Positions 5,402 to 27,915 of a stretch of 56,859 nt of DNA are shown here, in pieces; within the stretch, counting starts at the first letter, position 1, and each line of letters starts with the position of its first letter. Source of the stretch: Synergistes sp. (GTDB lineage Bacteria > Synergistota > Synergistia > Synergistales > Synergistaceae); assembly GCA_017537925.1 (NCBI GenBank), contig JAFYJW010000047.1, positions 1-56,859 of the forward strand. Direction: 5' to 3'. A program made the position numbers and the translations under genes. The notes beneath the pieces were generated by a model. That model saw only the letters and a list, made by a program, of their open reading frames with translations. It was not told where the DNA came from and searched no databases.

Positions 5402-6163
5402 ATGCAGAATCCTCTCAAACTGATCAAAAACGGCATAATAACCGAGAACCCGACCTTCGGTCTCGTGCTCGGTATGTGTCCGACTCTTGCTGTAACGTCG
5501 AGCGCCGAAAACGGCTTCGGTATGGGGCTTGCCGCGACGGCGGTCCTGATGGGCTCGAACGTCGCGGTCTCCGCGATACGCAAATTCATCCCGGACGAGA
5601 TCCGCATCCCGGCGTTCATCGTCGTGATCGCTGGCTTCGTGACCGTTGTGCAGCTGCTTATCTCGGGCTATGCACCGGCGCTGGATAAATCGCTCGGCAT
5701 ATTCATTCCGCTGATAGTCGTTAACTGCATCATACTGGCGCGCGCCGAAGCTTTCGCTTTCAAGAACGGCGTAGCAGACTCGCTCTTCGACGGCATAGGG
5801 ATGGGGCTCGGCTTTACTCTCGCGCTTACAGTGATCGGGGCTATACGCGAGATCCTCGGAAACGGCACCGTTTTCGGCATGACGGTCCTTTCCCCCTCCT
5901 TCTACCAGCCGGCTCTTCTCGTCATACTTGCGCCGGGCGGCTTTATCACGCTCGGCATACTGATGGGGCTCTTCCGCAATTACCGGATGAAGAAAAAGAC
6001 GGAAAACGGCGGTGCAGGACAGACCTTCGACGGCTGGAAAGAGCTCGATGCCTGCGGAGGATGCGCGCTCAAGAGCCTCTGCGGCGGCGGCAACTCAATG
6101 GTCGTCTGCGCGAAAAACGCGCCTGCGCCCGAAGCAAAAACTGAAAAGGAGGCCGATAAGTAA
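5402..6163 (+). CDS. rnfE: RnfE, membrane subunit with Cys-rich tail
   Basis: A 253-residue integral membrane subunit of Rnf, homologous to RnfA and NqrD, with about six hydrophobic segments up to residue ~195. The ATG at 5402 has a perfect AGGAGG Shine-Dalgarno at the end of rnfG. Odd feature: after the membrane part there is a ~55-residue soluble tail with Cys218, Cys221, Cys227 and Cys236 (motif CGGCALKSLC) that could hold a metal or Fe-S centre. It ends in TAATG, overlapping rnfA. Confidence 0.95.
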   Translation: MQNPLKLIKNGIITENPTFGLVLGMCPTLAVTSSAENGFGMGLAATAVLMGSNVAVSAIRKFIPDEIRIPAFIVVIAGFVTVVQLLISGYAPALDKSLGIFIPLIVVNCIILARAEAFAFKNGVADSLFDGIGMGLGFTLALTVIGAIREILGNGTVFGMTVLSPSFYQPALLVILAPGGFITLGILMGLFRNYRMKKKTENGGAGQTFDGWKELDACGGCALKSLCGGGNSMVVCAKNAPAPEAKTEKEADK

Positions 6164-6741
6164 TGTCTCTTATAGCTCTCTTTATCAGCGCTCTGCTTGT
6201 GCACAATATACTTCTGTCGCGCTTCCTCGGCTGCTGCCCCTTCCTCGGAGTATCCAACCAGCTTGAGACGGCTAAGGGTATGGGGGTAGCGGTCATCTTC
6301 GTCACGACGTTCGCGGCCATCATGACATGGCTCGCCTATACGTTCATTCTCGTGCCGATGGGGCTCGAATACCTTTACACTCTGTCGTTCATTCTGATAA
6401 TAGCGGCGCTCGTCCAGTTCGTGGAAATAGTGCTGAAGAAAGTGATGCCGGGGCTGTACAAGTCGCTCGGCATATTCCTGCCGCTTATCACGACGAACTG
6501 CGCGGTGCTCGGCGTGGCGGTCATCAATATGAACGAGAAATACACGCTGATCGAATCGATAGTAAACGCGGTAGGCTCTTCGGCCGGCTTCCTGCTCGCC
6601 ATAGTGCTGATGGCAGGCATTCGCGAACGCATCGAGATGAACGAAGATATGCCTGCGGCGCTGCGCGGCCTTCCGATAGCTCTGATAACAGCCGGGCTCA
6701 TGTCGATAGCTTTCATGGGCTTCAACGGGCTCATTAAATAG
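6163..6741 (+). CDS. rnfA: RnfA, membrane subunit
   Basis: A 192-residue integral membrane protein with six predicted hydrophobic segments. It shows the family signatures LLSRFLGCCPFLG near the N-terminus and ITTNCAVLG in the middle; the paired Cys in RnfA and RnfE are proposed to hold a shared intramembrane Fe-S centre. Length is as expected. It starts in the rnfE stop and is followed after 11 nt by rnfB. Confidence 0.96.
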   Translation: MSLIALFISALLVHNILLSRFLGCCPFLGVSNQLETAKGMGVAVIFVTTFAAIMTWLAYTFILVPMGLEYLYTLSFILIIAALVQFVEIVLKKVMPGLYKSLGIFLPLITTNCAVLGVAVINMNEKYTLIESIVNAVGSSAGFLLAIVLMAGIRERIEMNEDMPAALRGLPIALITAGLMSIAFMGFNGLIK

Positions 6742-6752
6742 GGGGTCTTGAT

Positions 6753-7598
6753 ATGAACGGCATAATTTATCCGGCTGCAGTAATGGGAGGACTTGGAGTC
6801 GTATTCGGCGCGCTTCTCGCATTCGCGTCGCAGAAATTCTTCGTTAAAGTTGACGAACGCCAGGCAAAGATACGCGAGCTTCTTCCAGGCGCAAACTGCG
6901 GAGGCTGCGGTTTCCCCGGCTGCGACGGATACGCCGAGGCCTGCGCTTCCGGAAGCGCGAAGCTGAACAAATGCGCCGCCGGCGGCCCGGACGTCGCGGC
7001 TAAGATCGCAGAGATAATGGGCGTAGCGGCCGAGGCCGCGGAGCCTTTGGTCGCGTTCGTAAAGTGCCAGGGGACGCCCGATAAGGCCGTGAAAGACTGC
7101 GTCTATCACGGCGTCACGGACTGCCGCGAGGCGGTCGTGGTCCCGGGCAAAGGACCTTCTTCCTGCTCGTTCGGATGCCTTGGTTTCGGAACATGCGTAA
7201 AGATCTGCACATTCGGCGCGATTCGGATAAAAAACGGCATTGCCGCTGTGGACCGTGAAAAGTGCGTGGGGTGCGGAGCCTGCGCCGCGGAATGTCCGCG
7301 CGGGGTAATAACGCTCGTGCCGAAGAGATCCATGATTCAGGTCGGGTGCAGCAATCCCCACAAGGGACCGTTCGTAAAGAAAGTATGCAGCGCCGGCTGC
7401 ATCGGATGCACGCTCTGCGTGAAAGCCTGTCCCAAACAGGCTATAGAAATGAAGGGATCCGTCGCAGTGATAGATTCCGCAAAATGTGTGAACTGCGGAC
7501 TCTGCGCGGGCAAATGCCCGGTAAAGGCGATAACCGACGCAAGGCCGCCGCGGCCGGCACCGGCTCCTAAGCCTGAGGCCGCAGGACCTGCTGCGTAG
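6753..7598 (+). CDS. rnfB: RnfB, ferredoxin-accepting Fe-S subunit
   Basis: A 281-residue subunit with an N-terminal membrane anchor (residues ~5-25). This is followed by the four-Cys cluster motif of the family (Cys49, 52, 57, 64 in CGGCGFPGC) and then several ferredoxin-type CxxCxxCxxxC motifs in the second half, so it probably carries multiple 4Fe-4S clusters. It is thought to be the entry point for electrons from reduced ferredoxin. It ends in a Pro/Ala-rich tail. It is the last gene of the operon; a strong terminator follows. Confidence 0.96.
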   Translation: MNGIIYPAAVMGGLGVVFGALLAFASQKFFVKVDERQAKIRELLPGANCGGCGFPGCDGYAEACASGSAKLNKCAAGGPDVAAKIAEIMGVAAEAAEPLVAFVKCQGTPDKAVKDCVYHGVTDCREAVVVPGKGPSSCSFGCLGFGTCVKICTFGAIRIKNGIAAVDREKCVGCGACAAECPRGVITLVPKRSMIQVGCSNPHKGPFVKKVCSAGCIGCTLCVKACPKQAIEMKGSVAVIDSAKCVNCGLCAGKCPVKAITDARPPRPAPAPKPEAAGPAA

Positions 7599-10987: not shown

Positions 10988-11614
10988 ATGTCAATAGCAG
11001 AAGTTCGCCAGTACATGGTAGACGGAGATGGAGAAGCGGCGGTAGCCCTTACGAACAAACTGCTCTCGGAAGGCACGCAGGCACAGGATATTATGAACGG
11101 TCTGACCGAAGAGATGGGAATCCTCGGAGAGAAATTCGAGAACTTCGAGGTCTTCCTTCCCGACCTTATGATCGCGGGCGACGCCTTTATGCAGATCATG
11201 TCTGTGCTCAAGGAACATCTTGTCACCGCGGCCGACGGCCCGGCAAAGACGGTCGTTCTCGGAACGGTGAAGGGCGACTATCACGACATCGGAAAGAACA
11301 TCGTAGGCATTGTGCTGCAGGCAAGCGGCTTCAACGTGATCGACCTCGGCGCCGACGTAGACCCCGTGGCTTATCTGGAAACGGCCCGCAAAGAGAAAGC
11401 CGACGTGGTCGGACTTTCAGCCCTTATGACGACTACGATGCCGGGACAGGAAGAGTTCATCAAGCTCGTAAAAGACGCCGGAGAAAAGGGCAAATACTTA
11501 GTCTGCGTGGGCGGAGCCCCGACTTCGGTCGAATGGGCGGAGCGCATAGGCGCCGACGTCTGGTCCTTCGACGCGTTCGAGTGCGCGGCAAAGCTCAAGA
11601 AGCTCCTGGGATAG
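10988..11614 (+). CDS. corrinoid protein of a methyltransferase system (MtmC/MtbC-like)
   Basis: A 208-residue methyl carrier. Residues ~1-85 form the helical cap domain and ~86-208 the Rossmann-like B12-binding domain. The cobalamin motif DxHxxG is intact as Asp97-Tyr-His99-Asp-Ile-Gly102, with His99 as the expected lower cobalt ligand. In the cell it should shuttle a methyl group between the MtmB-like protein encoded next and an acceptor methyltransferase. It is first in its operon, with a GGAGG RBS. The size matches monomethylamine/dimethylamine/trimethylamine corrinoid proteins, and sequence alone cannot separate these. Confidence 0.93.
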   Translation: MSIAEVRQYMVDGDGEAAVALTNKLLSEGTQAQDIMNGLTEEMGILGEKFENFEVFLPDLMIAGDAFMQIMSVLKEHLVTAADGPAKTVVLGTVKGDYHDIGKNIVGIVLQASGFNVIDLGADVDPVAYLETARKEKADVVGLSALMTTTMPGQEEFIKLVKDAGEKGKYLVCVGGAPTSVEWAERIGADVWSFDAFECAAKLKKLLG

Positions 11615-11644
11615 CTTAGAAAATATTTTACGGAGGAATAAAAG

Positions 11645-13036
11645 ATGTCAACTTTCAGAATGTGGGAAGTATTCGCAAAGGCTGAAGACGGCCCGTTTTT
11701 CAAAGATCAGACGGAATGGATGCTGAAAAGCTTCATCCCGCAGATGAAAAGAGTAATAAAAGAACATGACATCAAATATGACGGAAAAAGCATCGTAAAC
11801 CAGGACGACGCTCTTGCCGACAGAACATGGGAAGCGGCGAAGGATTTCTTTATCTCGGTCGGCGTTTACAACCAGGATACTCACCGCGTCATGAAATTCA
11901 CCGAGCGCGAGGTAAACGAGGTCCTCTACACAAAGCAACCGAAATACATGATCGGCGCAGGACACGACCAGCGCTGGTTCCAGATGCGTTCGATAGAAGA
12001 CAGGGAACGCCGCCCCTTCCACCTTTTCAGCCCCGACGCGAACTTCAGCACGGACATCCACAAGAAGGCCTGCATGGCCTATCTTAAAGAGCCGCTGCTC
12101 GACGGCCTCTGCGCGCCTCTTATCGAAGACTTCATGGGACGCAAGGCCACGTCGCAGAGCCCGACAGAGGTCGCGGCCGCGATGGAGCACGCTATGAACC
12201 TCCGCGATGCGCAGCGCCTTGTGGGACGCCCGGACGTATGGACCGTATCGGTCGGCACCGCGGAATCCGCACAGGCGCAGATCGCGGCCGGGAATCCGGT
12301 CTGGGGGGTACGCCAGTCGCATCTTGACGGACGCATGGTCTCGATCCTCACCGAAATGACGACAAACAACGCGATGCTCAACAAATCCCTGCACTACCGT
12401 TCATACGGCAACGTCTTCGGCAACCTCTGCGGAGCCATTTTCGGAGGACACGCGGGCGGCACCGAGGGTACGCTGGTCCTTCAGACGGCCTACAACATCG
12501 AAGGCGCCTGTCTGTACGGATCCTGCTGGGCGCTGAACTTCCCGTTCCACCTTAAATGGCAGTCGACGACGACAAGACAGCTGCTGTGGCTGCAGAGCGT
12601 TCTTAGCCAGGCGCTGTCGCGCAACTCAAATCTCATTTACATGAACAACCTCTTCGCAAACGCCGGCCCAGGCACCGAACAGCTCTACTGGGAATGCGCG
12701 AACCACGCGCTGGCGACCGAGTGCTGCGGCGGCAACCCGTGGGGGGCAGCTACCTGCCGCAACAAGTTCACCGATATGGCGACTCCGCTTGAATCACGCT
12801 TCTACCACGAAGTATCCGAAGCTTCCTTCAAATCGCGTCTTTCAAGGGCAAAATGCGAAGAGCTCTGCCAGAAGATCATGGAGAAGTACGAAAAGCTTAT
12901 CCCGATAGACAACTACGGCAAACGCATACAGGAAGTCTACGATATGGACAAGCTCACGCCGCGCCAGGAGTACCTCGACCAGTACGAGCGCATGCGCGAC
13001 GAGCTCTGCGCGATGGGCGTCGAATTTCCTTACTAA
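11645..13036 (+). CDS. MtmB-family methyltransferase without pyrrolysine
   Basis: A 463-residue homologue of monomethylamine:corrinoid methyltransferase MtmB (about 458 residues in Methanosarcina). Recognisable blocks shared with MtmB, from memory, include a TDTHR-like DTHRVMKFTE near residues 78-87, a VGRP block near 193-196, FGGHAGGTE near residue 265, a WQSTTTRQ block and AGPGTE. In methanogens Pyl202 is read through an in-frame UAG. Here there is no UAG, and my hand alignment places Val201 (GTA, 12245-12247) at that position. The gene sits right after a corrinoid protein and has a GGAGG RBS. It should demethylate some substrate onto the corrinoid, but without Pyl the methylamine chemistry is not expected to be the same, so the substrate is unknown. 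Confidence 0.85.
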   Translation: MSTFRMWEVFAKAEDGPFFKDQTEWMLKSFIPQMKRVIKEHDIKYDGKSIVNQDDALADRTWEAAKDFFISVGVYNQDTHRVMKFTEREVNEVLYTKQPKYMIGAGHDQRWFQMRSIEDRERRPFHLFSPDANFSTDIHKKACMAYLKEPLLDGLCAPLIEDFMGRKATSQSPTEVAAAMEHAMNLRDAQRLVGRPDVWTVSVGTAESAQAQIAAGNPVWGVRQSHLDGRMVSILTEMTTNNAMLNKSLHYRSYGNVFGNLCGAIFGGHAGGTEGTLVLQTAYNIEGACLYGSCWALNFPFHLKWQSTTTRQLLWLQSVLSQALSRNSNLIYMNNLFANAGPGTEQLYWECANHALATECCGGNPWGAATCRNKFTDMATPLESRFYHEVSEASFKSRLSRAKCEELCQKIMEKYEKLIPIDNYGKRIQEVYDMDKLTPRQEYLDQYERMRDELCAMGVEFPY

Positions 13037-13049
13037 ATAATACGAAATA

Positions 13050-13084
13050 CTGCGGTGACGGAAATGACTTTTCTGTCACCGCAG
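13050..13084 (+). promoter_or_regulatory. strong intercistronic hairpin
   Basis: Positions 13050-13064 pair with 13070-13084 (15 bp, one wobble) around a 5-nt loop, between the MtmB-like gene and the UroD-type gene. No T-run follows, so it is more likely an mRNA-stability or processing element than a terminator. It may set different levels for the upstream pair and the downstream genes. Confidence 0.65.
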
Positions 13085-13117
13085 GAAATGAAATGACAGA
13101 AAGGACGATGATGCTTT

Positions 13118-14131
13118 GTGAATTCCAGACAATGGCTTGAAGATCTGAAAAGATCTCCGGTAAAAAAAGGCCTGCCGATACTCTCCTTCCCCAGCGTCAG
13201 CATTACAGGCGTCACCGTAAGAGAACTCGTACAAAACAGCTCACTTCAGGCCGAGGGCATGAAGGCTGTGGCCGACCGCATTCCTTCCGCGGCTTCAGTA
13301 AGCATGATGGATCTTTCCGTGGAAGCCGAAGCCTTCGGCTCGGCGATAAAGACCTTTGAGAGAGAAGTTCCCGTCGTGACGGACGAGATCGTGCAGGACG
13401 AAAAGTCCGCCGACGCGCTGAAGATACCGCATGTCGGAGACGCGCGCACCGGCCTTTTCGTCGAAGCCGTCGAAAAAGCCTGCAAACTTATCACAGACCG
13501 GCCCGTGCTTGCCGGCGCGGCTGGACCGTTCTCCCTCTGCGGCAGGCTGATGGGGATCTCAAAGTCGATGATACACTGCGTAAAGAATCCGCAGATGGTG
13601 CACACGACGATGAAAAAGGTCACGCCCTTCCTGATCGAATATGTAAAAGCTTTCAGAGACGCCGGAGCAAACGGGCTGATCATGGCAGAACCGCTCACGG
13701 GACTGCTCTCTCCGAAGCTTGCGAAAGAATTCTCCGAACCTTATGTGAAGGAGATAATCGACGCCGTTCAGGATGACAGCTTTATCATCGTATACCACAA
13801 CTGCGGAGGCTCCGTGCCGCGGATGATGGATTCGCTGCTTAGAGCAGGCGCAGCCGCCTATCATTTCGGCAACGCGGTAAGCATGAAGGACGTCCTGACA
13901 AAGCTCCCCGAAAGCGTGATCGCGATGGGCAATATCGACCCCTCGTCGCAGTTCTGCATGGGCACGCCGCAGTCGATGAGAGAAGCGGTGCTTTCGCTGA
14001 TGAAAGAATGCTGTCCGGACTTCCCCAATTTTGTTATCTCGTCCGGCTGCGATATAGCGGTCAACGCAAAATGGGAGAATATCGCGGCGTTTTTTGATGC
14101 TATCGAAGAGTACAACAATACGGCAAAATAA
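13118..14131 (+). CDS. UroD-family methylcorrinoid methyltransferase (MtaA/MtbA-like)
   Basis: A 337-residue TIM-barrel protein of the uroporphyrinogen-decarboxylase-like family that includes methylcobalamin:coenzyme M methyltransferases. The zinc ligands of that group are visible: His227-x-Cys229 (in YHNCGG) and Cys311 (in SSGCD). It would take the methyl group from the corrinoid protein and pass it to a thiol or pterin acceptor. In a bacterium without coenzyme M the acceptor is probably tetrahydrofolate or another carrier, which is inference. The start is GTG at 13118; nearby ATGs are out of frame. It is third gene of the operon, 81 nt after the MtmB homologue across a hairpin. Confidence 0.87.
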   Translation: MNSRQWLEDLKRSPVKKGLPILSFPSVSITGVTVRELVQNSSLQAEGMKAVADRIPSAASVSMMDLSVEAEAFGSAIKTFEREVPVVTDEIVQDEKSADALKIPHVGDARTGLFVEAVEKACKLITDRPVLAGAAGPFSLCGRLMGISKSMIHCVKNPQMVHTTMKKVTPFLIEYVKAFRDAGANGLIMAEPLTGLLSPKLAKEFSEPYVKEIIDAVQDDSFIIVYHNCGGSVPRMMDSLLRAGAAAYHFGNAVSMKDVLTKLPESVIAMGNIDPSSQFCMGTPQSMREAVLSLMKECCPDFPNFVISSGCDIAVNAKWENIAAFFDAIEEYNNTAK

Positions 14132-14294
14132 TGCCATAAAGTATTTTTTTAAGTGCTTTTTGCGTAATAATCTATTTTAACAACTAAAAAATGTGCAATG
14201 ATAGGCATGTTTCGCGGCTGAATAATTAGCTGTTTTTTTCGTCTTTTTGTAGCCGTCAGCCGCGGAGTTGCCTAAAACAAAGGGAGGCAAAAAA

Positions 14295-15845
14295 ATGACT
14301 GTTACAAAAGTTAAGAGACCCTCTTTTATCGTAGCGCTCGCAACATTCATATGCATAGCGGGCACGATAAGCTTCGGTCTGCTGAAGCTCGGGCTCGACG
14401 CACATGTTCCTATCGCGGTGGCGGCAGCGATAGCTGCGCTCGTGGGCAAGTTTATCGTAGGCATAACATGGGAAGAGATGGAAACGGCGATCTGCAATGC
14501 CATCTCGTCGTCGGTAGGCGCCCTCCTGATACTGATCGCTATAGGCATGCTGGTCGGCTCATGGGTCCAGGCAGGAGTCGTTCCGGGACTTATCTATTAC
14601 GGCTTTAACGTTCTTTCGCCCGGCATCTTCCTTTTTGCAACGCTTATCCTCTGTTCGATAGTTTCGCTTGCCACGGGCTCGTCGTGGGGCGTTGGCGGGA
14701 CCGCGGGAGTTGCCCTCATAGGAATCGCGGCGGGACTCAACATCCCGGCGCCGCTTGCCGCGGGCGTTATAATATCGGGCGCCTATTTCGGAGACAAGAT
14801 GTCGCCTCTTTCGGATACCACTAACCTGGCGCCTGCCGTATCGGGATCGAACCTCTTCGACCACATACGCGCAATGATGTGGACGACGGTGCCGACATAC
14901 ATAATCGTGGCTGTAATAACCATAGTACTCGGCTTCTCTTATTCCGGCAGCGCGGCATCGTTCGACCCCACCCGCATACAGGCGTTCCAGAAGATCCTTG
15001 CCGCCGAATTCTCAATAAACCCAATCTATGTCGCGATACCCGTGATCATAGTCCTGGGGCTTGCGGTAATGAAATGCCCCGCTTTGCCGAGCATGATGGC
15101 GGGCACAGCCGCGGCTTCCGTCCTTGCTATGATTCAGGGAACAAGCCTTGCGGACGCGCTTGGCGCAATACATTACGGGTATGAGTCATCGGTAGCGACG
15201 AAACTCTCCGAAGCCGCGATGGAGGAACTTCCGGCGGTAATGAGCGAGGCTGGCATTGCCGGCATAGCTCCGGAAACGATACACGAAGTCTCGTCGCTCG
15301 TGACCGAGCTGCTGAACAGAGGCGGCCTTGACAGTATGATGTGGTCGCTTTCGCTTATCATGATAGCGCTCGTGCTCGGAGGCATAATGGAAAGCTGCCA
15401 CTACCTCGAAGTGCTCCTTAACCCGATGCTCTACAAGATTCGCAGAGTCGGAGGCTTTGTGACGCTTGTGGTCGCTTCATGCTTTGTCAGCAACCTCTTC
15501 CTCGGAGACCAGTATCTTGCGATAGTCGTCCCGGGACGCATGTTCAAAACCGCCGTCGCAAAGACGGATCTTTCTCCGCGAATGCTGTCACGAACGCTTG
15601 AGGACTGCGGCACGATGACGGCTGTTCTTATCCCGTGGACCGGCTGCGGGGCTTTCCAGTCAGGAGCTCTCGGCGTGCCGACTCTTTCGTACGCCCCCTA
15701 CTGCTTCATGAACATAATCAACCCGTTCGTGGCGATAATAATGTCGTATCTTGGCATAGGCATTTACTGGGGCAAAAACGGCGCGGACAAGATCGAAAAA
15801 CGCTCCGCTCTCACATTCCCGCGCGACGACGAAGCGGCAGCCTGA
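14295..15845 (+). CDS. NhaC-family Na+/H+ antiporter or coupled substrate transporter
   Basis: A 516-residue polytopic membrane protein with about 11-12 hydrophobic segments and the NhaC-type signature SPLSDTTNLAPAVSG near residue 180. NhaC relatives include Na+/H+ antiporters and malate/lactate antiporters such as MleN. The ATG at 14295 follows GGGAGG with 7-nt spacing. It lies within the methyltransferase cluster, 163 nt after the UroD-type gene. In that setting it could either import the methylated substrate or balance sodium for energy conservation; the sequence does not decide. A hairpin terminator follows it. Confidence 0.82.
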   Translation: MTVTKVKRPSFIVALATFICIAGTISFGLLKLGLDAHVPIAVAAAIAALVGKFIVGITWEEMETAICNAISSSVGALLILIAIGMLVGSWVQAGVVPGLIYYGFNVLSPGIFLFATLILCSIVSLATGSSWGVGGTAGVALIGIAAGLNIPAPLAAGVIISGAYFGDKMSPLSDTTNLAPAVSGSNLFDHIRAMMWTTVPTYIIVAVITIVLGFSYSGSAASFDPTRIQAFQKILAAEFSINPIYVAIPVIIVLGLAVMKCPALPSMMAGTAAASVLAMIQGTSLADALGAIHYGYESSVATKLSEAAMEELPAVMSEAGIAGIAPETIHEVSSLVTELLNRGGLDSMMWSLSLIMIALVLGGIMESCHYLEVLLNPMLYKIRRVGGFVTLVVASCFVSNLFLGDQYLAIVVPGRMFKTAVAKTDLSPRMLSRTLEDCGTMTAVLIPWTGCGAFQSGALGVPTLSYAPYCFMNIINPFVAIIMSYLGIGIYWGKNGADKIEKRSALTFPRDDEAAA

Positions 15846-15873
15846 TTCCTTCAACTATCCCAAATCAAAAAAC

Positions 15874-15922
15874 AGTCGGGCGAAGCATCTTTATTTATGC
15901 TTCGCCCGACTTTATAATTTTA
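15874..15922 (+). terminator. terminator after the NhaC-type gene
   Basis: A perfect 15-bp stem (15874-15888 with 15897-15911) with an 8-nt loop is followed by a T-rich stretch. The activator gene starts only 50 nt later with no obvious strong promoter, so partial readthrough may set a low level of the activator. Confidence 0.8.
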
Positions 15923-15973
15923 TATGGCTGAAAGCACCGCTTATTTGGCTGTTTCCGACAGGAGGCGTCGGCT

Positions 15974-17599
15974 TTGGAAAAAAAGACTGAAAAAACGCTT
16001 CGCATCACATTCATGCCGGACGGCATCACCGCATGCGTGCCGGAAGGGACAGCGGCGTCAGACGCCGCAGACTCTGCCTCCGTGATGATCGGGCGCCACT
16101 GCGGCGGCGCAGGCGTCTGCGGCAAATGCCGCGTAATGGTAAAAGACAAAAGCAAAGACCCCTTCGCGCCAGTCACAGAAACGGAAAAAAAGCGTCTGGC
16201 ACAGGATGAGCTGCGGGCCGGCGTAAGGCTCGCATGCTGCGCAAGAATAGCAAGAGACGGCGCCGTATACGTCATAGACCGCAACGAAAGCCGCGGCAGC
16301 CGCATACTTGAGGGCTTTTTCAGCGGCATAAAAGACTGGTCGCAGGATAAAAGCGGTTTCGGCGCGGCCGTCGACATTGGCACGACGACCGTCGTATGCT
16401 ACCTGCTCGACCTTGACAGACATAAGATCACGGATCGCGTTTCTTTTCTGAACCCGCAGGTCGCTTTCGGAGATGACGTGATCTCAAGGATCGCATACTC
16501 CTCTTCTTCCGGCGAAGCTCTGCTGCGCGCCCGTAAGGCGATAACGGCGGAAATAGAGAAAAATATACTCGCTATGACCGAAAAAAACGGGATCCCGCCA
16601 GAAGAGATAAAAGAAATAGTTATCGCCGGAAACACGGTAATGGAGCATCTATTCGCCGGCGTTTCCCCGGAGAGCATAGGGCGAAGCCCCTACTGCCCGC
16701 AGTTCCTGATTATGCCACCGTTTCCGGCGGCTGATATCGGGATGGAGATAAACGAAACGTGCACCGTGAAAATGCTGCCTAACGTCGCAGGCTATGTAGG
16801 AGCCGACATCGTAGCCGGCGTTGCGGCGACCGGCATGGATATAGAGGACAAAATGCGGCTCCTCGTCGATATCGGCACCAACAACGAGATAGTTATCGGC
16901 AGCCGGAAAGGCATGTACTGCTGCGCTACCGCGGCGGGGCCGGCATTCGAAGGAGCAAGGATACAGTACGGCATGAGGGCTGCCGAAGGCGCGATAGAAA
17001 AAGTCTTCATGGAAGACGGAGAGCTTGCCTGCAAAACAATAGGAGGGTCGTCTCCGCGCGGTCTCTGCGGTTCGGGCCTTATAGACGCGATAGCGCTGCT
17101 TCTTGACGAAGGCGTCATATCTCTCGGCGGGCGCTTCGAATACCCGGAAAAATGCACAGACCAGCGCTTTGCAAAAAGACTCTGCCGCGATGCCAAAGGC
17201 ATGGTGCGCCTGCTTCTCACCGACGAAGAACACCCTGTATACCTTACGCAGAAGGACATAAGGGAAGTGCAGCTTGCGGCGGGCGCAGTGAAGGTCGGTA
17301 CGGAAGTCATGCTTGAAAGGGCCGGGATAACGGCGAAGGATATCGATGAGGTCTGCCTTGCCGGCGCTTTCGGCAACAATATAAACATAGAAAGCGCGGT
17401 CCGCGTGGGGCTGATTCCAAACGTCCGCCGCGATATAATCACCGGCGTCAAAAATTCCTCCGGCCTCGGGGCCTGTATGTCCCTGGCCTCGGATGACTTC
17501 TTCAGAAGAACGAAAAGCGCCGCTGAAAAAATGGCCTACGTTGAACTTTCGTCCCTTGCTGATTTTCAGAAACGATTCATAAACGCGATGTCTTTTTAA
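15974..17599 (+). CDS. reductive activator of corrinoid proteins (RACE, ASKHA-type with 2Fe-2S domain)
   Basis: A 541-residue ATP-dependent protein that would reduce inactive Co(II) corrinoid back to Co(I). The N-terminal domain has a plant-ferredoxin-type 2Fe-2S motif (Cys43, Cys49, Cys52, then Cys88). After a linker comes the ASKHA/DUF4445 region with AAVDIGTTTVVCYL (~131-144) and further phosphate-binding motifs such as LLVDIGTNNEIV and the C-terminal LAGAFGNNI. This is the architecture known for bacterial RACE/RamA-like proteins. It starts at TTG 15974 behind GGAGG, a weak start suited to a catalytic helper. Its presence supports the reading of the upstream genes as corrinoid methyl-transfer enzymes. 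Confidence 0.9.
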   Translation: MEKKTEKTLRITFMPDGITACVPEGTAASDAADSASVMIGRHCGGAGVCGKCRVMVKDKSKDPFAPVTETEKKRLAQDELRAGVRLACCARIARDGAVYVIDRNESRGSRILEGFFSGIKDWSQDKSGFGAAVDIGTTTVVCYLLDLDRHKITDRVSFLNPQVAFGDDVISRIAYSSSSGEALLRARKAITAEIEKNILAMTEKNGIPPEEIKEIVIAGNTVMEHLFAGVSPESIGRSPYCPQFLIMPPFPAADIGMEINETCTVKMLPNVAGYVGADIVAGVAATGMDIEDKMRLLVDIGTNNEIVIGSRKGMYCCATAAGPAFEGARIQYGMRAAEGAIEKVFMEDGELACKTIGGSSPRGLCGSGLIDAIALLLDEGVISLGGRFEYPEKCTDQRFAKRLCRDAKGMVRLLLTDEEHPVYLTQKDIREVQLAAGAVKVGTEVMLERAGITAKDIDEVCLAGAFGNNINIESAVRVGLIPNVRRDIITGVKNSSGLGACMSLASDDFFRRTKSAAEKMAYVELSSLADFQKRFINAMSF

Positions 17600-17620
17600 A
17601 CAGAGCGGCGGTGACAGCGA

Positions 17621-18352
17621 ATGAAGAAGATAAAAATCTTTTACTCCGAATACGGCAGTGAAGATGTACAGGAATATGAAAGCGAAGATGTTCGGGTGAA
17701 TCTCTCTTCCCTTGAAGAATTCTATTCAAAACTTGGAGAAAAACATCTGCTCTCTTTCCGGAAATTCGCCGATTTCTGGGAAACGGACGGCTGTGAACGG
17801 CTTTTCCGGCCTCAGGCCGTGATAAAGACGATGCCCGCCGAAGTTCTTTCGGCGGAATTCAAAGGCGTGCCGGAGCTGGAACATAAAGAAGAAAAAACTG
17901 CTCTTTTGGTATGGACGATAGGAGACGAGCTTGAAAAAGAAGCAAGCAGGATGACCTCTGCGGCAGGAAGCATAATGACCGGGCTTCTGCTTGACGTAGC
18001 AGGCTCGATATCGCTCTACTCCATGCACGGCGTACTTATCGGGTGGTTAAGAAATAAAGAGGCTCTCTCCGGCCGCTTCGTTTGCGGGGAGTACTACCCG
18101 GGCATAGGCAACATGAGACAGGATCTGATGGAAAAGGTAGTGTCCTGCGGTGCGACGGAAACCCTGATAAACGTGACCGCAAGCGGCACTTCCCTTCTTT
18201 GCCCCCGGAAATCGCAGTGCGCTTTCGCAGCGTTGGGTCAAAAGGAAGGCGCATGCGAGATAAAGACAGAACCGTGCCGTCCCTGCAAAGGCAAAAAGTG
18301 CCTCTATTACCAGCTTGGGGGCTGCCATATGATGTATTCGGAAAAGCGCTGA
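17621..18352 (+). CDS. MetH reactivation-domain-like protein with Cys-rich tail
   Basis: A 243-residue protein. Its middle resembles the activation (AdoMet-binding) domain of cobalamin-dependent methionine synthase: a Gly/Tyr-rich segment with GEYYPGIGN near residues 156-164, followed by a conserved-looking TLINVTASGTSLLCPRKS. The C-terminal part has seven Cys (194, 200, 212, 219, 222, 227, 235), partly arranged as CRPCKGKKC, suggesting an Fe-S cluster. It lies 21 nt after the activator gene. It may assist corrinoid reactivation, as either an AdoMet- or an Fe-S-dependent helper; this is inference from fold resemblance and position. Confidence 0.7.
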   Translation: MKKIKIFYSEYGSEDVQEYESEDVRVNLSSLEEFYSKLGEKHLLSFRKFADFWETDGCERLFRPQAVIKTMPAEVLSAEFKGVPELEHKEEKTALLVWTIGDELEKEASRMTSAAGSIMTGLLLDVAGSISLYSMHGVLIGWLRNKEALSGRFVCGEYYPGIGNMRQDLMEKVVSCGATETLINVTASGTSLLCPRKSQCAFAALGQKEGACEIKTEPCRPCKGKKCLYYQLGGCHMMYSEKR

Positions 18353-26760: not shown

Positions 26761-27915
26761 ATGAAGCTTACCATCAACAAGAAACAATTTCTTGCAAGCT
26801 GGGGCCTTGCGGAAAGGAGCACTTCTGCGTCAGGGACGGTGAGCATTCTCTCGTCCGTTCTCATCAAAGCTTCTTTCGATTCCGTCATCATGCAGGCCAC
26901 GGATATAAAGACTTCCGTCATATGCAGAGCATGCGGCGTTACGGTGATAGATCCCGGTGAGGCGGTATTTCCCGTCAAGATGGTCAGCGAGCTTTTCAAA
27001 AAGGCTCCGGGCGAGGAATTTGCGATAGACGTAAACGAAGGAAAGGTCACGCTTAAGTCGGGAAGGAGCAAATATAATTTCTCAAGCTATCCTGTAAGTG
27101 AATTTCCTCCTCTGCCCTCTTCCGAAAACGCTCAGACTTTCTGCGTAGTTACAGCCGCTGATCTTGCGAGATCCATCGAAGAGGGCACGCTTGCCGCTTC
27201 GTCGGGCGAAGAGTTCCCTCTTTACCTCTCGTCAGCCAATTTCCATATTTCTTCCGGAAAGCTCAATATAGTATCGACCGACACAAGAAGGCTGGCCGTA
27301 TCATCTTCCGGCGTGAGCTCTTCTGCGGACAACGTGTCGGCGCTGCTTCCTATGAAGGGAGTAAAAGAGCTTCAGAGAGTGATATCGACGCTTCCTCCCG
27401 AATCTGAGATTAAAATTCTTTTTGATGAAGCACAGTTTTACTTTAAAACGGAAACAGTCGAGTTTGCTGTTCGCCGTGTAGAATCAAAATTCCCTCCGTA
27501 TGAAAAGATATTGCCCACGTCAAGCACTCTCGACGCGGTAGTTGACAGAGCAGACCTTATTTCCGCCCTCGAAAGGGTAGACGTCATAGTCCGTGATTTC
27601 AACCGCATGGTAGTTATGGATGTGGCGCCGGGGTCCAATCTGATCCTTCAGGGGCGCGCTCCTGACTTCGGCAACGCAAAGGAAGAAATAGAGGCCAAGG
27701 CTGAAGGAGAAGGGCTCAGAATAGCGGTGAACTCCAAGTTTTTCCTTGAGGCGCTCAGAGTCATAAGGGATCCCGAAGTTAAGATATCCTTTAACGGAGC
27801 GTCGGGACATATGAGCGTAAAGCGCTGCGACGGGGAAGATTTCCTCTGCATGATAGCGCCTATAAACCTCTCTGCCGAAGAGCTTGCGATGTTCGACAGA
27901 GAATCAGAACAGTAG
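26761..27915 (+). CDS. dnaN: DNA polymerase III beta subunit (sliding clamp)
   Basis: A 384-residue ring-forming clamp with three repeated clamp domains. The N-terminal MKLTINKKQFLASWGLAE and the C-terminal ending LCMIAPINL are typical. The clamp tethers DNA polymerase III and other partners to DNA. The RBS AGGAGGG precedes the ATG at 26761. It ends in TAG two bases before the recF start, so UAG is used as an ordinary stop in this organism. Confidence 0.97.
   Translation: MKLTINKKQFLASWGLAERSTSASGTVSILSSVLIKASFDSVIMQATDIKTSVICRACGVTVIDPGEAVFPVKMVSELFKKAPGEEFAIDVNEGKVTLKSGRSKYNFSSYPVSEFPPLPSSENAQTFCVVTAADLARSIEEGTLAASSGEEFPLYLSSANFHISSGKLNIVSTDTRRLAVSSSGVSSSADNVSALLPMKGVKELQRVISTLPPESEIKILFDEAQFYFKTETVEFAVRRVESKFPPYEKILPTSSTLDAVVDRADLISALERVDVIVRDFNRMVVMDVAPGSNLILQGRAPDFGNAKEEIEAKAEGEGLRIAVNSKFFLEALRVIRDPEVKISFNGASGHMSVKRCDGEDFLCMIAPINLSAEELAMFDRESEQ

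Follow-up and report, generated by a model that had tools for sequence, protein, structure and literature searches.

Locus and gene content

The window, by which we mean the whole stretch of DNA that was analysed (56,859 nucleotides), is contig C61 of a 1.98 Mb host genome in 77 contigs with a reported completeness of 100%. The host is a gut-type bacterium of Synergistota, and its closest named relatives, as judged by the MtmB protein described below, are Synergistes and other Synergistaceae at 84-99% identity. Open reading frames and profile searches showed that six genes are encoded on the same strand between positions 10988 and 18352 (Table 1). The five genes named in the first-pass annotation, encoding a corrinoid protein, an MtmB homologue, a UroD-type enzyme, a transporter and an activator, were all recovered where it had placed them, and a sixth, at 17621-18352, lay within its range but had been left unnamed. 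A search of titles and abstracts found no relevant literature on this cluster in Synergistes or Cloacibacillus.

Table 1. Features of the methyltransferase locus and its flank, in window coordinates.
Feature	Position	Strand	Basis or remark
BTAD/AAA/TPR regulator, 983 aa	7724..10675	-	PF13191, PF03704
Corrinoid protein MtxC, 208 aa, DYHDIG motif	10988..11614	+	PF02310, PF02607; PDB 1y80, 7xcn, 3ezx
Non-pyrrolysine MtmB homologue, 463 aa, candidate MT1 (substrate:corrinoid methyltransferase)	11645..13036	+	PF05369, PDB 1l2q
Codon GTA = Val201	12245..12247	+	Aligned to Pyl202 of M. barkeri MtmB
UroD-superfamily Zn methyltransferase, 337 aa, candidate MT2 (methylcorrinoid:thiol methyltransferase)	13118..14131	+	PF01208
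NhaC/ArcD-like transporter, candidate substrate carrier	14295..15845	+	TIGR00931, NF052307
15-pair terminator-like hairpin	15874..15911	both directions	Between transporter and RACo
RACo-type ATP-dependent reductive corrinoid activator, 541 aa, N-terminal 2Fe-2S domain	15974..17599	+	PF14574, PF17651, PF00111
243-aa protein, MetH reactivation-domain fold, Cys-rich C-terminus	17621..18352	+	AlphaFold2 + Foldseek

The best NCBIfam match of the corrinoid protein is MtbC (NF041607), at 176 bits against a cut-off of 350. The transporter exceeds the cut-off of TIGR00931 (412 bits, cut-off 370) and falls below that of the ArcD model NF052307 (377 bits); its mechanical start is a TTG at 14268, but the ATG at 14295, which has its own ribosome site, is the more likely start. 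The activator is a standard RACo. No Pfam match was found for the 243-aa protein that follows it. Its AlphaFold2 model (pLDDT 83) was matched best by Foldseek to the MetH activation domain TM0269 (1j6r, E 1.6e-5), and the next 15 matches were also MetH, at TM-scores of only 0.33-0.49; a profile match to the same structure (E 0.006) agrees with the assignment to the fold of the AdoMet-binding reactivation domain of MetH. As judged from this model, the protein is a candidate second corrinoid reactivation factor.

The hairpin between the transporter and RACo genes is a strong, perfect stem that is terminator-like on both strands, which suggests a separate transcription unit for RACo and the 243-aa gene. 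Upstream, the gene for the BTAD/AAA/TPR protein is oriented divergently from the operon. This protein is a candidate operon regulator, with a homologue encoded nearby in 12 of the 24 context loci.

The MtmB homologue and its pyrrolysine site

The MtmB homologue belongs to its family over its full length, with a PF05369 match of 254.6 bits (cut-off 25; E 2.3e-75) that covers residues 6-458 of 463 and profile positions 3-449 of 450, and full-length matches to the MtmB structures 1l2q and 1tv2 at E about 4e-50 (3.8e-50 for 1l2q). The relationship to MtmB is thereby confirmed, at 26% identity to the Methanosarcina barkeri enzyme. The gene contains no in-frame UAG and ends in TAA. In the alignment with M. 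barkeri MtmB, the place of the UAG-encoded Pyl202 of MtmB sensu stricto is occupied by Val201, just as the first-pass annotation had read it. Residues Glu229, Glu259 and Gln333, which we take to be those around the Pyl ring in the MtmB structure, are likewise not kept and align with Met231, Leu261 and Asn335. These four substitutions (V201/M231/L261/N335) are invariant in 29 of 29 close sequences from 19 genomes, some of which are counted twice. Further changes in the clade relative to M. barkeri are G200 to W199, I256 to F258, Q260 to C262, G297 to F299, V299 to F301 and Y335 to F337.

Within the window, TAG is the normal stop codon of rnfA (6163-6741), rnfB (6753-7598) and dnaN (26761-27915), as had been noted from the sequence, and of the corrinoid gene as well; in several close relatives, mtmB itself is terminated by UAG. 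The search for pyl genes that had been proposed as a check gave a best PylS match in the host genome of 25 bits against a cut-off of 178, and PylS is thus absent. Together with the replaced Pyl-site residues and the conserved operon described below, these results support the earlier reading of this gene as a pyrrolysine-free MtmB-type corrinoid methyltransferase, for which that annotation could name no substrate.

Among the 188 Synergistota genomes of the comparison set, PylS exceeds the cut-off in three, which all belong to a different genus; the 19 genomes that carry the window's MtmB clade are not among them. Two of the three (G150 and G146) carry a genuine UAG-MtmB that keeps all four Pyl-site residues; in both, the gene has a single in-frame TAG at residue 203, adjoins pylS and is accompanied by pylB-, pylC- and pylD-looking genes (L061, L062). 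The third PylS genome is G154. Genome G146 holds, in addition to its true UAG-MtmB and pyl cluster, a non-Pyl MtmB relative at 47% identity.

PF05369 was detected in 26 of the 188 genomes, and the 19 carriers of the window's clade, with MtmB identities of 82-99%, come from four families of the order. Comparison of mtmB with three relatives gave dN/dS values of 0.006/0.59, 0.072/0.88 and 0.10/1.33 (dS was saturated for a fourth), that is, ratios below 0.1, at about 0.01 to 0.08, and the gene is under purifying selection. Gene order around the clade is conserved, and within the operon conservation is stronger for MtmB and the corrinoid protein (66-96% identity) than for the transporter, RACo and the 243-aa protein. 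Two genomes placed in different genera (G166 and G132; L015, L016) encode identical MtmB proteins, suggesting either a recent transfer or a classification problem. In G187 (L036/L065; C63:65323-65964), a truncated mtmB remnant, a 216-aa frame with an internal TAA and 72% identity to the window's gene product, adjoins an intact UroD.

The second methyltransferase and the methyl acceptor

The window UroD, the sole UroD in the host genome, matches PF01208 at 180 bits and combines the UroD fold with the motif His227-x-Cys229...Cys311, so that the three residues singled out in the first-pass annotation are borne out and the protein classes as a UroD-type Zn-dependent corrinoid methyltransferase. 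It shares fold and motif with MtaA, MtbA and CmuA (PDB 4ay7) but lies far below their curated cut-offs, scoring 91 bits with the MtaA model (cut-off 400), 87 with MtbA (cut-off 600) and below cut-off with the MtaA/CmuA-family models, and hence does not qualify as an MtaA/MtbA methylcobamide:CoM methyltransferase.

Most relatives differ at this position. In 14 of the 19 carriers, the partner is a fusion protein of 455-478 aa, 79-96% conserved, that joins a UroD to a thioredoxin-like domain (CAPC) at the C-terminus and has Phe in place of the Zn-ligand His (FCC as opposed to HxC). The thioredoxin-like domain weakly matches NF047660 (HUIPC thioredoxin-like selenoprotein), and no described family with this fusion architecture was found. 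Examples beside the same mtmB are L004:4712-6082, L046:10484 and L050:10434. The stand-alone UroD with all three ligands, 23% like the fusion, is present in the window and in the near-identical G172, and G168 has a different stand-alone UroD, upstream. In G146, the gene in the MT2 position beside the 47% MtmB relative encodes a homocysteine S-methyltransferase domain, and the next one a D-cysteine desulfhydrase/CuyA-type enzyme; that locus (L060:4126-9757) also encodes a corrinoid protein and an NhaC-type carrier, and its homocysteine S-methyltransferase domain stands alone. The MT2 beside mtmB is exchangeable among UroD-thioredoxin fusion, stand-alone UroD and homocysteine methyltransferase, and this swap, partly outside the window, is the most unusual feature of the system. 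The operon reading of the first-pass annotation is upheld, with the swap between relatives and the identity of the sixth gene as the two elements that it had not seen. A UroD occurs in 19 of 19 carriers and in 76 of the 188 genomes (hypergeometric 7e-9, with relatedness ignored).

Two proteins of the host genome bind corrinoids, the operon's own and MetH (786 aa), and two bind pterin, MetH and a DHPS-like protein of 410 aa. As these are the only pterin binders, a folate-type MT2 of the MtrH/MtqA kind was rejected, which, by analogy with the known families, points to a thiol as the methyl acceptor. The His-x-Cys...Cys motif of the UroD and the homocysteine S-methyltransferase domain of the 47% relative also speak for a thiol. 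A role of the operon as a replacement of normal methionine synthesis was rejected, as MetF and MetH are encoded together on contig C72.

Substrate, proposed route and alternatives

Non-Pyl MtmBs are already known and numerous: about 1,000 sequences of the MtmB family have been collected, most without pyrrolysine, and only one such protein has a shown function. This is MtqB of Methanococcoides methylutens Q3c, which according to a 2026 report (PMC13044021) demethylates tetramethylammonium and choline. The non-Pyl identity claimed in the first-pass annotation stands but is less new than was implied. The M. barkeri enzyme resembles the window protein in full-length homology and in having its corrinoid partner encoded alongside, and differs at every residue of the Pyl site. 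MtgB and other non-Pyl MttB proteins follow the same logic, a member of a methylamine methyltransferase family freed from Pyl that acts on quaternary amines, but belong to another family (PF06253). No MttB was found in the host genome, and MttB paralogues were rejected as the real demethylase.

By alignment, the pocket of the window protein has lost Pyl and two acids and gained Trp199, Met231, Phe258, Cys262, Phe299, Phe301 and Phe337; as aligned at 26% identity, it would suit a methylated cation. An AlphaFold2 model from 11 close sequences reached a pLDDT of 39. Carriers near the mtmB loci are NhaC/ArcD-, YfcC-, AbgT- and TRAP-like. A class III aminotransferase is found in nine context loci and an M20 amidohydrolase in three, both being absent from the window's own operon. 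The pocket, the carriers and these two enzymes together favour an amino-acid betaine or an N-methyl amino acid over choline; that the substrate is amino-acid-like is suggested by genomic context, and is the weakest link of the argument.

We consider it probable, with some reserve, that the locus encodes a complete corrinoid-dependent system in which an amino-acid betaine or an N-methylated amino acid gives up a methyl group to a thiol. The NhaC/ArcD-like carrier would import the methylated, carboxylate-bearing nitrogen compound, and the MtmB homologue (MT1), whose pocket has Met, Cys and aromatic residues instead of Pyl and the acids around its ring, would bind it and offer a single methyl group to the corrinoid protein in its Co(I) state. 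From methyl-Co(III), the methyl group would then pass to the thiol by way of the UroD-type Zn enzyme (MT2), and RACo, probably aided by the MetH-reactivation-like protein, would rescue cobalt that had been oxidised to Co(II). This division of labour among MT1, corrinoid protein, MT2 and activator is modelled on related families. Against the amino-acid and thiol reading stand the substrates of MtqB, which are not amino acids, the lack of the aminotransferase and amidohydrolase in the window's own operon, and the distance of the UroD from MtaA and MtbA.

In the foremost alternative, itself unlikely, the operon encodes a bacterial MtqB, a choline or tetramethylammonium methyltransferase that differs only in using a thiol acceptor other than coenzyme M. 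Both proteins are MtmB-family members without Pyl, and, as described in PMC13044021, mtqB also has an MtbC-type corrinoid gene directly upstream (MtqC) and MtqB a pocket that is sulfur- and aromatic-rich, with conserved Met and Cys in its clade and aromatics near the ligand, similar to the residues gained in the window protein. In the archaeal system, the methyl group goes to coenzyme M through MtqA, an MtbA-type enzyme whose gene sits at another place in the genome, whereas in the bacterial window a dedicated UroD MT2, an amino-acid-type carrier and RACo adjoin the mtmB homologue. Against this alternative, the transporters of the conserved neighbourhood are amino-acid- or carboxylate-type, and none of the BCCT, choline ABC or QAC kind was seen there.

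A sulfonium donor such as S-methylmethionine or dimethylsulfoniopropionate, with transfer of the methyl group to homocysteine or another thiol, is rather improbable. It would account for the homocysteine S-methyltransferase and the adjoining D-cysteine desulfhydrase/CuyA-type PLP enzyme beside the 47% relative, and in other loci the leucine/methionine racemase model gives the class III PLP enzyme 410-416 bits, below cut-off. That enzyme scores higher, however, on general aspartate-aminotransferase-family models, and a homocysteine enzyme is a natural thiol-side partner of any methyl-corrinoid.

Very unlikely, in our estimate, is a non-amine donor (a halomethane or similar) for which the MtmB barrel would be mainly a binding scaffold. 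In its favour, dichloromethane induced no protein of 'Ca. Formimonas warabiya' DCMF more strongly than Ga0180325_111810, a non-Pyl member of the MtmB superfamily (PMC9768040), and a UroD-type chloromethane enzyme is regarded as a scaffold only (PMC13222342). The DCMF protein is, by its family description, a bacterial non-Pyl MtmB like that of the window, and differs in its induction on dichloromethane. Against a non-amine donor speak the dedicated transporter, which is conserved although halomethanes need no carrier, and the amino-acid enzymes that accompany the operon in relatives. The idea that a pyrrolysine had been overlooked, or that the gene is a remnant in decay, for which the true UAG-MtmBs of two other Synergistota genomes might be cited, was rejected and has a negligible chance of being correct given the GTA at codon 201, the absence of PylS, the UAG that ends relatives' own mtmB and dN/dS below 0.1.

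A bolder reading, to which we give less than even odds, is a new anaerobic catabolic route in Synergistota. In it, the non-Pyl MtmB would take a methyl group from an amino-acid betaine or N-methyl amino acid, three unrelated or remodelled MT2s (the UroD-thioredoxin fusion without the Zn-binding His, the classical Zn-UroD and the homocysteine methyltransferase) would have replaced one another next to a single type of MT1, and the methyl group would go to a thiol rather than to folate or coenzyme M. Were methylated amino acids indeed the substrates, methyl groups in rumen, gut and digester communities would have one more route. The Synergistota clade is compact and strongly conserved, and as it brings its own carrier, corrinoid protein, MT2 and activators, the substrate should be findable by reconstitution; with a Pyl MtmB and a non-Pyl relative together in G146, it can also be asked within one phylum what pyrrolysine adds.

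One carrier, G170 (L048:2877-18197), has two operons in tandem, each with its own mtmB paralogue, at 90% and 67% identity to that of the window. The second of these has its own corrinoid gene, an AbgT-type carrier and an M20 amidohydrolase, and its protein has Glu and Ser at the clade's Asn334/Asn335, which looks like an altered specificity.
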